NCBI GenBank assembly: GCA_007845205.1
Contig: SDRK01000001.1
Span: 1-37,081, forward strand
Direction: 5' to 3'
DNA length: 37,081 nucleotides
From: TM7 phylum sp. oral taxon 350
GTDB lineage: Bacteria > Patescibacteriota > Saccharimonadia > Saccharimonadales > Saccharimonadaceae
In this document: piece by piece, positions 24,121 through 28,234 of the stretch
Numbering within the stretch: position 1 is the stretch's first letter
How the letters are laid out: every line of letters starts with the position of its first letter
The notes under the pieces: model-generated
Databases searched by the model: none
What the model saw: only the letters and a program-made list of their open reading frames with translations
Told to the model about the DNA's origin: nothing
Position numbers and translations under genes: made by a program

Positions 24121-24978
24121 ATGATCCAAAAAGACAGTAGTATTAATAATCACCAGAAGATATTAAACATTTTCATTATTTCAGCTTTTCTTACTATTTT
24201 ATTAATGCGAGTTCTTTTTGAATTCTTAACTAAATCTTATTTTCTAACAGATAAACAATTACCACACTCTTTAATTGGCACTTTCCTTATTTGTTTAACT
24301 ATCGTAATTTTCATTACTTATGACAAAGTAAAAGAAAATAAGATTACTTATCTATTAATTACTTTAATGGGAATTGGAGCAGGATTACTGCTAGATGAAG
24401 CTGGACGTTTTTTGACTCATGGTTATAATTACCAATTTTCACCAACATTAGCTATTGCTTACATTATTCTTTTGTTGCTATGGTCGGTCGGCACAATTAT
24501 TAATATTATTAGATATCCGGACTGTCGTCCTAAAAATACTTTTATCTTTAATATCAATCCGATTGTTACGCCGCTAGTTCGTAATATTCTAATTATCTCC
24601 CTATGGCTTTCTGTAATAGCTGGATTCTTTTATTTGTCTTATTTTGCTACTACTTTGGGTGGTAATGCTAGAAACGCAATCTACCCCATGATAGGACCAA
24701 TAAAACCAGTTACGTCAGACACATTAGAATTAATACTGATTCTAATGATTCCAACATTAATTGGTTTATTTGCTGTGCTATTTACCTATTTCCTAGGCTT
24801 TAAAAAACAAGCTATAAAGCTAATTGAATTCTCAGCTTTATTTATTCTTTATATTGCAACGCCAATATTATCTATTACAAAACCATCTATTGCCTATATA
24901 TTTGCAGCACTAACTATTCTTGCTTTAATCATCTTATCTCCAAGAGAAATAAAAACTAAAAGCAAGAAAACAAAATAA
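24121..24978 (+). CDS. Polytopic membrane protein, unknown function
   Basis: A 285-residue protein with about eight hydrophobic helices spread through its length and a lysine-rich C-terminus. Helix 3 carries GIGAGLLLDEAGRFLTHG; acidic and aromatic residues within a membrane helix recall uncharacterised integral membrane proteins with an LxxDExGxxL motif. There is no transporter or enzyme signature I can defend. Monocistronic, ending before the strong bidirectional hairpin at 25075. Confidence 0.75.
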   Translation: MIQKDSSINNHQKILNIFIISAFLTILLMRVLFEFLTKSYFLTDKQLPHSLIGTFLICLTIVIFITYDKVKENKITYLLITLMGIGAGLLLDEAGRFLTHGYNYQFSPTLAIAYIILLLLWSVGTIINIIRYPDCRPKNTFIFNINPIVTPLVRNILIISLWLSVIAGFFYLSYFATTLGGNARNAIYPMIGPIKPVTSDTLELILILMIPTLIGLFAVLFTYFLGFKKQAIKLIEFSALFILYIATPILSITKPSIAYIFAALTILALIILSPREIKTKSKKTK

Positions 24979-25074: not shown

Positions 25075-25110
25075 TTAATAAAAGAAGGTCATGTGACCTT
25101 CTTTTATTAA
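25075..25110. terminator. Bidirectional intrinsic terminator
   Basis: Perfect 17-bp inverted repeat TTAATAAAAGAAGGTCA / TGACCTTCTTTTATTAA with a 2-base centre. It overlaps the stop codon of the minus-strand LASTG gene and terminates both converging transcripts. Confidence 0.88.
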
Positions 25111-25355
25111 TTCAAGCCCTTTTTAGCAACCACAGCTACAACTGACATTACCGCAATAATACCGATTGCTAAAATCAAAGATGTCGTTACATCCATTCCA
25201 GTAGAAGCTAGTCTTGTCGTAGTATCAACAGCCTCTACTTCTAGCTTATTTGTTATAACAGTGTAGAAAAACGCCATTATACCCATTATTAGTCCTAGCG
25301 ATAAAACACTTTTAGATAAATCTAAAAGACCACTAAGTCTAGTACGAAGTCTCAT
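25107..25355 (-). CDS. Miniature surface protein with LASTG sorting-like signal
   Basis: An 82-residue protein from ATG at 25355, with GGAGG 11 bases upstream; further in-frame codons to 25454 have no RBS. A hydrophobic helix (about 16-35) acts as signal peptide or anchor. A stretch of only about 15 polar residues (KLEVEAVDTTTR) leads to LASTG at 49-53, then a second hydrophobic helix (57-77) and VAKKGLN. This is the layout of a sortase substrate with almost no mature ectodomain. It could be a pilin-like subunit, a host-facing peptide, or simply a two-TM protein in which LASTG is coincidental. Confidence 0.62.
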   Translation of the reverse strand: MRLRTRLSGLLDLSKSVLSLGLIMGIMAFFYTVITNKLEVEAVDTTTRLASTGMDVTTSLILAIGIIAVMSVVAVVAKKGLN

Positions 25356-25458
25356 TCTTTTAGTACCCTCCACAAAAATAATTAAGACTAACTTCATCTT
25401 ATCATAAATAATCTTTACAAAAAGTCTTGACTTATCCAGAATATACATAACCATAATC

Positions 25459-25487
25459 TTGACTATTATGCTTATTTATGGTAACAT
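25459..25487 (+). promoter_or_regulatory. Promoter of cassette 1
   Basis: TTGACT at 25459-25464, 17 bases, then TAACAT at 25482-25487 with the extended-10 TGG in front. Predicted start near 25494. It diverges from the LASTG gene. Confidence 0.55.
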
Positions 25488-25493
25488 ATATGC

Positions 25494-25747
25494 GTGATGC
25501 AAATCATCACGAACCTAATATTTTTAGCCTTTCTTACCTAAGAAACTAAACTTGTTACGCCCGAATTATGTTTTGAATTATGTGCTCTAAATAAAACAAC
25601 TAAACCAATAAAGCATATAATCCAAAGCATAATCTCGGGTGAGCGAAATGAAACTTTGGAGGGTAGAAAAACTTAAGGGCTTTTTAAGAAGCCCAGAAAG
25701 TCCGGATGGGGGACTGAAACAGAACCCTTCCGGCAGGAAGGCTAAAT
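25494..25747 (+). ncRNA. Structured 5' leader of cassette 1 (putative translational switch)
   Basis: About 250 bases with no ORF. Hairpins in order: GTGATG/CATCAC at the 5' end; a long irregular stem of about 26 bp pairing 25560-25586 with 25612-25639; GGGCTT/AAGCCC (25677-25694); AGTCC/GGACT (25699-25715); CCTTCC-GGCA-GGAAGG (25726-25741). The last hides the RBS AGGAAGG that serves ATG 25748. The segment CCCTTCCGG (25725-25733) can instead pair upstream with CCGGATGGG (25702-25710, one mismatch), which breaks the last two hairpins and frees the RBS. It matches no riboswitch class I know. An independent small RNA ending within the leader is also possible. Confidence 0.6.
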
Positions 25748-26071
25748 ATGTTTAAGTGCCAAGAGATTGATAACAACAAAGTTGCTGAGGAATTGTATGA
25801 ATACAACCTCGCACTATCATCAATCATAACAAATTTAGTAAGAGGAGGTTCGGAAGAGAGTGATGCTCTCGTGAACTTACTAGGAAGCTTACTAAGAAAA
25901 CGGATTTTAAACATATCTGAAAAACAAAAATTAAAAATACAAAAAGAAGTAGAAAGAATAGCCGATGAGCTATTCGAATTAAAATTAAAAGAGTGTACGT
26001 CGGAGGTAACACTAGAAGAAATAGATTATCTTCTCGAGGTTGCCGACAACCTATATACTTTTTTATACTAA
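25748..26071 (+). CDS. Cassette 1 small helical protein, unknown function
   Basis: A 107-residue protein, AGGAAGG 6 bases before the ATG. Almost wholly helical by pattern: no signal peptide, no TM helix, one Cys near each end. The central part is a heptad-like LLRKRILNISEKQKLKIQKE and continues into VERIADELFELK. It is acidic at both ends. The arrangement of a K-rich helix followed by an I/L-xx-I/L helix recurs in the two following cassette proteins, so the three may be distant paralogues. Not recognised. The leader suggests its translation is conditional. Confidence 0.7.
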   Translation: MFKCQEIDNNKVAEELYEYNLALSSIITNLVRGGSEESDALVNLLGSLLRKRILNISEKQKLKIQKEVERIADELFELKLKECTSEVTLEEIDYLLEVADNLYTFLY

Positions 26072-26083
26072 AATAAATATTTT

Positions 26084-26109
26084 GGCCCTCTCACCGGGGT
26101 CTTTTTTTA
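26084..26109 (+). terminator. Terminator of cassette 1
   Basis: GGCCC / GGGTC pairing (5 bp with one G:U) followed by eight T residues, 13 bases after the stop codon. It makes cassette 1 a single-gene unit. Confidence 0.7.
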
Positions 26110-26137
26110 TTGTTATAAAACCTATATCTGTTACAAT
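26110..26137 (+). promoter_or_regulatory. Promoter of cassette 2
   Basis: TTGTTA at 26110-26115, 16 bases, then TACAAT at 26132-26137 with TGT in front (extended -10). Predicted start near 26144. Confidence 0.6.
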
Positions 26138-26143
26138 ATGTAA

Positions 26144-26262
26144 TGCACTTATATTTCGCTTTGAAAGCTACCCCTTCTTCTAGCCTTTAAAGCGGGATAT
26201 AAGGTATCTCGCTAATTATTTTAAAATTTAATTTTTCCGATATAAGGAGAAAGGGGCGAGAT
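26144..26262 (+). ncRNA. Structured 5' leader of cassette 2 with possible pseudoknot
   Basis: About 119 bases. A 13-bp stem pairs 26150-26162 with 26189-26201. Its apical region exposes CCCCTTCTTC (26171-26180), which matches GAGAAAGGGG (26247-26256), the RBS region, at 9 of 10 positions. Independently, TATCTCGC (26205-26212) can pair with GCGGGATA (26192-26199) or, perfectly, with GCGAGATA (26256-26263), which includes the A of the start codon. The first partner also belongs to the main stem. So main stem, anti-start pairing and loop-RBS pairing compete. This is what a translational riboswitch or thermosensor looks like, but no known class fits. Confidence 0.6.
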
Positions 26263-26625
26263 ATGGATTTTCTACCCTTTTGGGAGGCTAATATTACAGA
26301 CTTCGACGATCTATTAGACGAATATGAGTTCGATATTCGTTTCTCTATCATGTTAATGATAGGAAGGAAGCAAAATAGCTTCTTTACAGCTCATTTAGAT
26401 AAGGTTTACGAGGTCTTATCTGAACTAAATAAAAAATCCGTTCTTTTACGTAAAGAACAGCTAGAAGACATCCGTGATATGCTTTATCACGGAAGAGAAA
26501 AAATCGAAAATGCTTTTAATCAGGCAAAAGATGAAGTCCCTGATCATAAGCAATTCTATAACTTAAGAATTCTAAATAATATAGAAGGAAAGGTTATAGA
26601 AAAAATAGACAGTCTGTTAAAATAG
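26263..26625 (+). CDS. Cassette 2 small helical acidic protein, unknown function
   Basis: A 120-residue protein; RBS AAAGGGG 6 bases before the ATG. Acidic N-terminus (FDDLLDEYEFD), then helices with VYEVLSELNKKSVLLRKEQ continuing LEDIRDML, and a C-terminal helix. No Cys, no export signal, no TM. The central K-rich helix and following amphipathic helix resemble cassettes 1 and 3 in pattern only. Not recognised. Confidence 0.7.
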   Translation: MDFLPFWEANITDFDDLLDEYEFDIRFSIMLMIGRKQNSFFTAHLDKVYEVLSELNKKSVLLRKEQLEDIRDMLYHGREKIENAFNQAKDEVPDHKQFYNLRILNNIEGKVIEKIDSLLK

Positions 26626-26634
26626 CCAAACACC

Positions 26635-26661
26635 AAAGTGGAGCGATTGCTCCACTTTTTT
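26635..26661 (+). terminator. Terminator of cassette 2
   Basis: Perfect 10-bp stem AAAGTGGAGC / GCTCCACTTT with tetraloop GATT and a T6 tail, just after the stop codon. Confidence 0.9.
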
Positions 26662-26740
26662 CTTCTCTATTACCGCTTATTCTTGCTTTTAAAGCTTTTT
26701 TATTATATCGTTATAGCGTCTTTAAGATGTACTTTTAATT

Positions 26741-26846
26741 TTGTGCCGGTAGATCTGGAATCTTAAAAATTGTCTAGATCTATCGGTGCAATTATCAAGT
26801 GGAATTCCGCCGGTAGAAAAATTAACCATAGATACGGAGGGATTCT
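26741..26846 (+). ncRNA. Structured 5' leader of cassette 3
   Basis: A 19-bp stem without mismatches (four or five G:U) pairs 26741-26759 with 26773-26791 around a 13-base loop. GCCGGTAGA occurs both in its 5' arm and again at 26809-26817, so the 3' arm (TCTATCGG, 26779-26786) can switch partners. GAATTCC (26802-26808) can pair with GGGATTC (26839-26845), which covers the RBS GGAGGG at 26836-26841. The promoter is unclear; AT-rich candidates lie at 26683-26716. Confidence 0.55.
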
Positions 26847-27188
26847 ATGAATTTTGATACGTCTTTAAAAGAAAACGTCAACGATAATATCGAGGACATC
26901 AAGAATGGTATAGGAGACATATGCCACGCTTTAGTTCTTTCGGGTATAGGGGACCTAGGAAGGATTATAAGAAAGCATAATAATCCTAAATCAAATTTTA
27001 AAGAACCAGTCACGAAAGGAGACTGGAAAAACCTCAGTGACTACGCTGGGAATATAATAGAGCTTACCAGCAACCTTTTAGACAAAAAGGAGCTCTCAAA
27101 AGCAAAACTTAAAAAAATAAATCAACTAGAGGAGATTGCAATCAATCTCCAGTATGTAACAGATTTCATGAATTACCGCCTTGGTTAA
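26847..27188 (+). CDS. Cassette 3 small helical protein, unknown function
   Basis: A 113-residue protein; GGAGGG 5 bases before the ATG. Helical, with a glycine-containing N-terminal third (IKNGIGDICHALVLSGIGDLG), a basic middle and a C-terminal pair of amphipathic helices (NLLDKKELSKAKLKKINQL, then EEIAINLQYVTDFMNYRLG). No export signal or TM helix. Same size and helical pattern as the proteins of cassettes 1 and 2. Not recognised. Confidence 0.7.
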   Translation: MNFDTSLKENVNDNIEDIKNGIGDICHALVLSGIGDLGRIIRKHNNPKSNFKEPVTKGDWKNLSDYAGNIIELTSNLLDKKELSKAKLKKINQLEEIAINLQYVTDFMNYRLG

Positions 27189-27202
27189 TGCATGAAAATA
27201 AA

Positions 27203-27245
27203 AAAACTAATGTGTAGTTTATACGCGTATATACATATTAGTTTT
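27203..27245. repeat. Long inverted repeat after cassette 3
   Basis: AAAACTAATGTGTA (27203-27216) pairs with TACATATTAGTTTT (27232-27245), 14 bp with one G:U. The loop holds the palindrome TATACGCGTATA. There is no T-tract, so it may protect a 3' end rather than terminate. A true terminator follows at 27252. Confidence 0.6.
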
Positions 27246-27251
27246 ATATAG

Positions 27252-27279
27252 AGCGAAACTCCACTTGGTTTCGCTTTTT
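27252..27279 (+). terminator. Terminator of cassette 3
   Basis: AGCGAAAC / GTTTCGCT stem (8 bp) with an 8-base loop and T5, continuing T-rich. It overlaps the 3' remains of the dinD pseudogene on the other strand. Confidence 0.85.
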
Positions 27280-27288
27280 CTTTTTTAT

Positions 27289-27504
27289 AAATGCTTTAAC
27301 TTCTTTTCTTAAATCACCATTTTAAACAATTAAATAACAAGCATATCTCGTAAGTTTATAATCCTTAATAGATTTACTTGTAATTCCAGCTTCCACGATT
27401 TTGCTGACCTCGGCAAAATCGTGTGCTATTTTATGTCCACTATTCTCACAGGCAATCATCGCCCTATCTATAACTTTTTGGAATTTTTCTTAGGTATAAT
27501 CAAA
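27289..27504 (-). pseudogene. dinD: Decayed remnant of dinD (DNA damage-inducible protein D family)
   Basis: Minus-strand reading from 27504 gives FDYT, a stop, then EKFQKVIDRAMIACENSGHK, IAHDFAEVSKIVEAG, DYKLTRYACYLIV, a TAA where the family has CAA (Gln), then NGDLRKEVKAF. This is the conserved core of DinD/BRO-related proteins (usual pattern WxxFQKVIDRAMIACENSG and DYKLSRYACYLIVQNGDPRKEVI). About 70 of the normal 270 or so residues survive, with two in-frame stops and no start or C-terminus. The remnant shows that this region has gained and lost mobile or SOS-type genes. The remaining bases of the gap (27189-27562) hold the repeat and terminator listed separately and otherwise nothing recognisable. 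Confidence 0.85.
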
Positions 27505-27562: not shown

Positions 27563-28234
27563 TTATCTGTCTCTATATTTTTCAATAGAATTCCCTTGCG
27601 AATCTTTCCATTCCATCCACCCGTTGTTAGATTTATCAATGACTACCCAACCAGCACTCGATGGATTCATACATATAATATCTTCTTGTAATATGTTATC
27701 TTTTATTTTTGCATTTCTTCTAATAGAAGGTACATACTTTTTGTCAACATTGCCACAAAGGCTTCCTTTTAATACCGTAAATACTCCATTTTTAACAATG
27801 GCTCTGCCTTTTACTTTTCCAAAGCCTTTTATGTTGCGATTTAATACATATTCTCCATCTGGAATAAATCCTTCATTCATCTTAAGCTTTATTTCCTCTG
27901 TAGATTCTTTAAATACTTCTTTTTTACTTTTATCCTTAGGATAAATTTGCTTACCATCTAAAGAAGCTAATAAAGATTTAGCGATCTCTATATCTAATGC
28001 AAACAGCTCAGTACCAATAATCCTACTTTTGCTAAAAATGTCATGAATAAGCTTTTCTTTATCGTCGTATCCATCCACTTCTATAGCAAACTCTCTTTTT
28101 AGTCCCGTAATATTAGCATATCCATTGCTTTCTAAAAATCTCATTCTATTTTCAAATTGATCATTTCTAGTCTTACCAATCTTAATAAGACCAGGAACAA
28201 CTGTAGTCATCAAATATATTATTCCCTTTGCCAC
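27563..28234 (-). CDS. GIY-YIG nuclease family protein with C-terminal DUF4357
   Basis: A 223-residue protein. The N-terminal T5orf172/GIY-YIG domain (about 1-90) has GIIYLM, PGLIKIGKT and ENRMRFLESNGY, with FDKE-type KEKLIHDIFSKSRI then ELFAL. C-terminally (about 125-220) comes DUF4357, ending GWVVIDKSNNGWMEWKDSQG. Proteins of this build occur in phages, mobile islands and defence contexts; nuclease activity is family inference. GTG start with AGGAG 6 bases upstream and TATAAT at 28253-28258. It is 174 bases from rsmA and next to the dinD remnant, consistent with an island edge. Length is somewhat shorter than many homologues. Confidence 0.85.
   Translation of the reverse strand: MAKGIIYLMTTVVPGLIKIGKTRNDQFENRMRFLESNGYANITGLKREFAIEVDGYDDKEKLIHDIFSKSRIIGTELFALDIEIAKSLLASLDGKQIYPKDKSKKEVFKESTEEIKLKMNEGFIPDGEYVLNRNIKGFGKVKGRAIVKNGVFTVLKGSLCGNVDKKYVPSIRRNAKIKDNILQEDIICMNPSSAGWVVIDKSNNGWMEWKDSQGNSIEKYRDR

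Follow-up and report, generated by a model that had tools for sequence, protein, structure and literature searches.

In the 37,081-nt stretch of DNA from TM7 phylum sp. oral taxon 350 that we analysed (the window), closed translation starts are predicted for three consecutive plus-strand genes, P1, P2 and P3: in the dominant predicted fold of all three leaders, the SD/start region is taken up by a strand lying upstream of it. Judging from these folds, we hold the chances to be about even that the leaders close on themselves and control the translation of three lineage-specific small proteins, with a strand relay in leaders 2 and 3. This reading draws in silico on the non-random structure of the leaders, the closure of the SD and start codon, and the robustness of the closed state. 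The original prediction, made from the bare sequence, had proposed that the leaders share a logic and no primary sequence; closure by an upstream strand in each of them bears this out.

Three tandem units and their proteins

The three genes are flanked by ksgA and by the gene of an uncharacterised membrane protein at 24121-24978 (Table 1), in an assembly of 523,632 bases that is 67% complete and is the sole genome of its genus in our comparison set; the gene content resembles that of Saccharibacteria. A hexamer model trained on this genome gave in-frame log-likelihoods per codon of +0.34 (P1), +0.53 (P2) and +0.23 (P3), with -0.55 to -1.35 in the other frames, and the three ORFs are real coding sequence. 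The proposal of three tandem monocistronic units holds up: there are three separate coding genes, of 107, 120 and 113 aa, each with its own terminator and a structured leader. Terminator-like sites number 14, against 1.5 +/- 1.4 expected. Promoters had also been proposed for the first two units. TG-extended sites are indeed present ahead of both, but promoter-like sites show no enrichment in the region (11 observed, 10.8 expected from shuffles), and the consensus scan found no promoter-like site for unit 3. A 25-nt direct repeat (84%) at 26169-26193, in leader 2, and 26671-26695, after the unit-2 terminator, is perhaps the trace of a duplication.

Table 1. Coordinates of genes, leaders, predicted RNA elements and signals (window positions).
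Feature	Position	Strand	Details
Promoter-like site, unit 1	25459-25487	+	TTGACT, 17 nt, TG-TAACAT; TG-extended, sigma-70-like; consensus scan
Leader 1	25492-25747	+	~255 nt, 5' end inferred from promoter-like site; MFE -93 kcal/mol
Anti-RBS strand, leader 1	25517-25534	+	Partner strand 25735-25752, about 200 nt away; P 0.86
Upstream ORF, leader 1	25648-25755	+	35 codons (MKLWRVEKLKGFLRSPESPDGGLKQNPSGRKAKYV); stop overlaps P1 start codon (ATGTTTAA)
Local hairpin, leader 1	25702-25733	+	Arms 25702-25710/25725-25733, P 0.86
SD and start codon of P1	25735-25750	+	Unpaired 0.13 vs 0.49 in shuffles; 1/400 shuffles as low
P1	25748-26071	+	107 aa ORF; SD site; hexamer coding score
Terminator, unit 1	26084-26101	+	Terminator scan
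Promoter-like site, unit 2	26110-26137	+	TTGTTA, 16 nt, TG-TACAAT; TG-extended, sigma-70-like; consensus scan
Leader 2	26144-26262	+	~119 nt, inferred 5' end
5' hairpin, leader 2	26148-26203	+	Arms 26148-26170 and 26181-26203
Anti-start strand, leader 2	26203-26213	+	Pairs with 26253-26265, P 0.88
P2	26263-26625	+	120 aa ORF; SD site; hexamer coding score
Terminator, unit 2	26635-26658	+	Terminator scan
Leader 3	26716-26846	+	~131 nt, 5' end uncertain
5' hairpin, leader 3	26741-26791	+	19-nt arms 26741-26759 and 26773-26791, P 0.97
Anti-RBS strand, leader 3	26794-26812	+	Pairs with SD/start region 26835-26850, P about 0.81
P3	26847-27188	+	113 aa ORF; SD site; hexamer coding score
Terminator, unit 3	27250-27277	+	Terminator scan; loop TCCACTTG

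By composition, P1, P2 and P3 are soluble (GRAVY -0.19 to -0.52, best 19-aa window at most 1.09), with no transmembrane-like window in any of them; P1 (pI 4.6) and P2 (pI 4.9) are acidic. Single-sequence modelling gave four helices for P1, with low confidence (pLDDT 53), and three long helices forming a helical bundle for P3, with moderate confidence (mean pLDDT 74). Fold searches with the P3 model returned generic helical bundles only, none with E <= 0.001. P1 and P3 could be distant paralogues, a possible but weak relationship at the sequence level (3.2% of shuffles are as similar). Residues 2-73 of P1 resemble LPD28 (Pfam PF18843; E 3.4e-4, 20.6 bits); we rejected P1 as an LPD28 domain protein, since the score lies below the curated cut-off of 27 bits, which no genome of the taxonomic family passes either.

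That RNAs and proteins alike fall outside known families, as originally suggested, agrees with our searches of Rfam, Pfam, PHROGs, NCBIfam and PADLOC. P1, P2 and P3 had no match above cut-off in Pfam and none in PHROGs, NCBIfam or PADLOC. Against Rfam 15, two tRNAs alone exceeded the gathering score in the whole window, and a relaxed search gave no credible match. We found no homologues of the three proteins in viral contigs, phage and plasmid collections, the PDB or 121 genomes of the taxonomic family, none of P1 and P2 in the genome contig collection, and none of P2 and P3 in 345 genomes of the order. A few protein matches with E of 1e-3 to 1e-2 fell inside longer ORFs and were set aside as chance-like. 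Single-sequence covariance models detected no relatives of leaders 2 and 3 (198 and 237 genomes); weak matches to the leader 2 model at L059 and L060 were discarded, as no small cassette gene lies there. The DNA patterns of leaders 1 and 3 were absent from viral contigs, and a mobile palindrome (MITE/REP) was rejected, the leaders having no further copy in the genome. The best reading of P1-P3 is that they are lineage-specific small, mostly helical proteins.

A synteny comparison showed that the gene downstream of ksgA differs in 20 relatives. Because the ksgA neighbourhood differs in this way, the three-cassette stretch is a lineage-specific insertion or rearrangement, and may constitute a variable island. 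Downstream of the cassettes, on the minus strand, lies a dinD (DNA damage-inducible protein D) remnant at 27322-27459, which matches PRK11525 (E 1.2e-13) and is marked as a pseudogene by an in-frame stop further on. It is followed, also on the minus strand, by a GIY-YIG/T5orf172-type gene at 27563-28234 that matches the candidate phage-defence family PDC-S57 (E 6.5e-106). Homologues of the N-terminal half of this gene occur in four relatives of the taxonomic family, in differing neighbourhoods and, in two of the four, apparently close to restriction-modification genes; none of the four adjoins comparable cassettes. Of the effector, anti-defence and stress roles suggested originally for the cassettes, only a defence-related one gains any support, from the adjoining candidate defence gene and the possible variable island, and that support is weak.

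Predicted closure of the start sites

Relative to dinucleotide shuffles, the leaders fold with z-scores of -7.69 (leader 1), -4.94 (leader 2) and -6.56 (leader 3), and 0 of 200 shuffles of each did as well; the finding survives this comparison, which had been named beforehand as one that could refute it. Only two other genes in the window have leaders with z < -5. One of these leaders overlaps a tRNA gene on the opposite strand, and the other, which belongs to the divergent gene 25107-25454, consists of leader 1 sequence read on the reverse strand.

In the folding ensemble, every closing helix (P 0.81-0.88) takes in the start codon together with the SD, wholly or in part. When the leader was shuffled and the RBS kept (400 shuffles per leader), an equally closed RBS arose once for leader 1, 26 times for leader 2 and 13 times for leader 3; the p-values for leaders 2 and 3 are modest. 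Closure is retained in the full-length transcripts, where the leader accounts for 65-82% of the RBS pairing and predicted pairing between the 5' and 3' ends is 0.00-0.03. Shifts of the 5' ends anywhere from -25 to +20 nt leave it in place as well, with leader 2 somewhat looser (0.30) at +20. RBS accessibility is 0.12-0.17 at 20-42 C and <= 0.25 at 60 C, and an RNA thermometer was rejected because the RBS stays closed over this range. All of these values come from thermodynamic folding models, which leave out pseudoknots and kinetics.

A genome survey of 128 leaders contained 12 with z < -4, four of which also had an accessibility < 0.3; leaders 2 and 3 are two of these four strongly folded, closed-start leaders, a rare combination in this genome. 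Leader 1 entered the survey with 160 nt only, at which length it scores z -2.6 and accessibility 0.59, and it closes, and so joins this group, once its 5' strand is included. Closed-start structured leaders were found in 1 of 90 and 1 of 83 in the two relatives sampled. Other genes of the source genome also carry strongly folded leaders whose RBS is not specially closed. At L097 5040-6275 (contig C37), two consecutive orphan genes encoding membrane-like proteins of 125 and about 146 aa lie between LysM-type and obg-like genes; each has a terminator of its own and a strongly folded leader (z about -5 and -4.5), with RBS closure no greater than in shuffles. Two function-unassigned genes of the same genome, at L068 311-1096 (-) and L088 1768-2217 (+), have leaders with z of -4.8 and -5.9.

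Predicted routes to opening and rival explanations

We declared every 18-nt stretch of a leader occupied in turn and recomputed the accessibility of the RBS. Capture of an upstream strand is predicted to open the RBS directly in leader 1, by relay in leader 3 and, more weakly, by relay in leader 2. Blocking 25517-25534 in leader 1 raised accessibility from 0.13 to 0.67, and only such direct capture of the 5' strand opened this RBS well; indirect opening was no better than in shuffles (31 of 60 equal). The pairing of 25517-25534 with 25735-25752, absent from the original prediction, is the most important one in leader 1. What had been predicted instead was competition between strands near each RBS. 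All of the complementarities are present, but a single helix dominates each leader and the alternatives have a P of about 0: 0.00 for the hairpin 3' arm 25726-31 with the SD at 25736-41 in leader 1, and close to 0 at equilibrium for 26192-26199/26205-26212 in leader 2 and for 26779-26786/26809-26817 in leader 3. Recast as a latent alternative fold, the competition gains relay support in leader 3 and marginally in leader 2, but none in leader 1.

The ensemble closing helix of leader 3 joins 26800-26810 to 26838-26850 (P 0.81). With arm 26741-26759 hidden, the freed second arm pairs with 26808-26817 and accessibility rises from 0.14 to 0.48, an indirect gain that 0 of 200 shuffles reach; within the folding model, the leader 3 relay is statistically supported. 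When 26148-26170 is hidden in the same way in leader 2, the anti-start strand can pair with 26191-26199, and accessibility moves from 0.17 to about 0.3 (0.31). Eleven of 200 shuffles gain as much, three of 200 from an equally closed start, and the statistical support is marginal. The hairpin loop of leader 2, CCCCTT, has its complement, AAGGGG, in the SD region. An 8-nt complementarity also connects the unit-3 terminator loop (27258-27268) with 26796-26803 in the anti-RBS strand of leader 3; the match, spotted after the fact, occurs in 2 per 1000 shuffles, and its pairing would compete with closure.

We propose that P1, P2 and P3 would each be made from a separate transcript, the 5' leader of which holds translation down by pairing with the SD and start codon of the same mRNA until it is opened. 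The closing strand of leaders 2 and 3 lies just 3' of the long 5' hairpin. Occupation of the first hairpin arm would allow the second arm to capture the closing strand in leader 2 or, in leader 3, to invade the closing helix at its base. Because the freed second arm would remove or invade the closing helix, a binder of the first arm, whether an antisense RNA, a trans RNA or a protein, would turn translation on by strand relay. The long-range duplex of leader 1 could be opened by binding of its 5' strand or, alternatively, when ribosomes read through the upstream ORF that overlaps the P1 start. We infer that the predicted promoters are active, that a trigger exists and that the leaders exert control in the cell. 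A search of the genome, two thirds of which is assembled, found no trans RNA partner by extended complementarity beyond short matches of chance length. Eighteen nucleotides of the leader-1 start region recur in L073, antisense within a gene resembling the ATP synthase a subunit, and we dismissed this as a chance match.

The overlapping ORF raises the possibility that P1 is translationally coupled to 25648-25755, with leaders 2 and 3 using another way. This ORF runs through the RBS helices to end at the P1 start codon, has GGTGAG 4-5 nt 5' of its ATG, and scores above both other frames. Its coding score is nevertheless neutral (+0.03 per codon), and inspection by eye found nothing comparable in leaders 2 and 3; we regard this division of labour as unlikely. 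Autoregulation, in which each helical protein would bind its own leader in ribosomal-protein style and stabilise the closed or the open form, would apply to all three units. One leader per protein with no leader sequence in common is what would be expected if each protein read its own leader, and P1 and P3 are predicted to be small helical proteins. The acidity of P1 and P2, however, is uncommon among RNA binders, and P1-P3 match no RNA-binding family. Control at the level of the RBS, with one leader for each small protein, is a further likeness to ribosomal-protein leaders, whereas the orphan character of the proteins and the lack of any recognised rRNA-site mimic set the present leaders apart. 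On balance, we consider autoregulation rather unlikely.

A non-translatable primary transcript is a hallmark of type I toxin-antitoxin systems (PMC6733600), and the SD is sequestered in the predicted primary transcripts of all three units. Under the logic of hok/sok or AapA/IsoA, an untranslatable toxin mRNA would become open through processing, and an antisense RNA would silence it. As in the toxin mRNAs of hok/sok and aapA/IsoA (PMC6733600), a small ORF with its own terminator occurs here in several units, and the SD is closed by an upstream or distant strand through mutually exclusive pairings. On the minus strand over the P1 start, a promoter-like site (25820-25792) and a terminator-like hairpin (25741-25726) could frame a short antisense RNA, though such promoter-like sites occur at chance frequency. 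P1-P3 are soluble proteins of about 110 aa and not short hydrophobic peptides, and the long-distance pairing of 5' and 3' ends is missing from the predicted transcripts, so units of this type appear very unlikely. Ligand-binding riboswitches of a novel class are more improbable still. The leaders are highly structured and the closing helix resembles an expression platform, but the three consecutive sequences are unrelated, none matches Rfam, leaders 2 and 3 are simple long hairpins and not junctions, and the models of these two leaders found no conserved aptamer-like core in relatives.

Known self-closed leaders and significance

Self-closed mRNA leaders that respond to a trans RNA include that of rpoS, opened by DsrA, and that of hla, opened by RNAIII. 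As in our proposal of self-closed leaders with a strand relay, an upstream inhibitory strand closes the RBS in these mRNAs, and occupying the upstream strand frees it. DsrA and RNAIII, however, capture the inhibitory strand directly, whereas leaders 2 and 3 would relay through a second hairpin arm and have no trans RNA found for them. Synthetic toehold/relay riboregulators also combine arm capture, strand displacement and start codon release; unlike them, the leaders described here are natural sequence and have no defined single-stranded toehold.

According to a perspective on Patescibacteria, the mechanism of differentiation between host-attached and free cells is completely unknown, and regulation of translation probably plays a key part (PMC11665869). 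Three independent, RNA-triggered relay switches in a natural array, each with a sequence of its own and together controlling a set of orphan proteins in an ultrasmall epibiont, would be a candidate for translational control of this differentiation; we rate this broader reading as quite unlikely. The locus offers three neighbouring mRNAs with strongly closed predicted starts, which can be tested with reporters without growing the organism. If the relay is true, adjoining genes of unrelated sequence would carry a natural equivalent of engineered strand-displacement switches.
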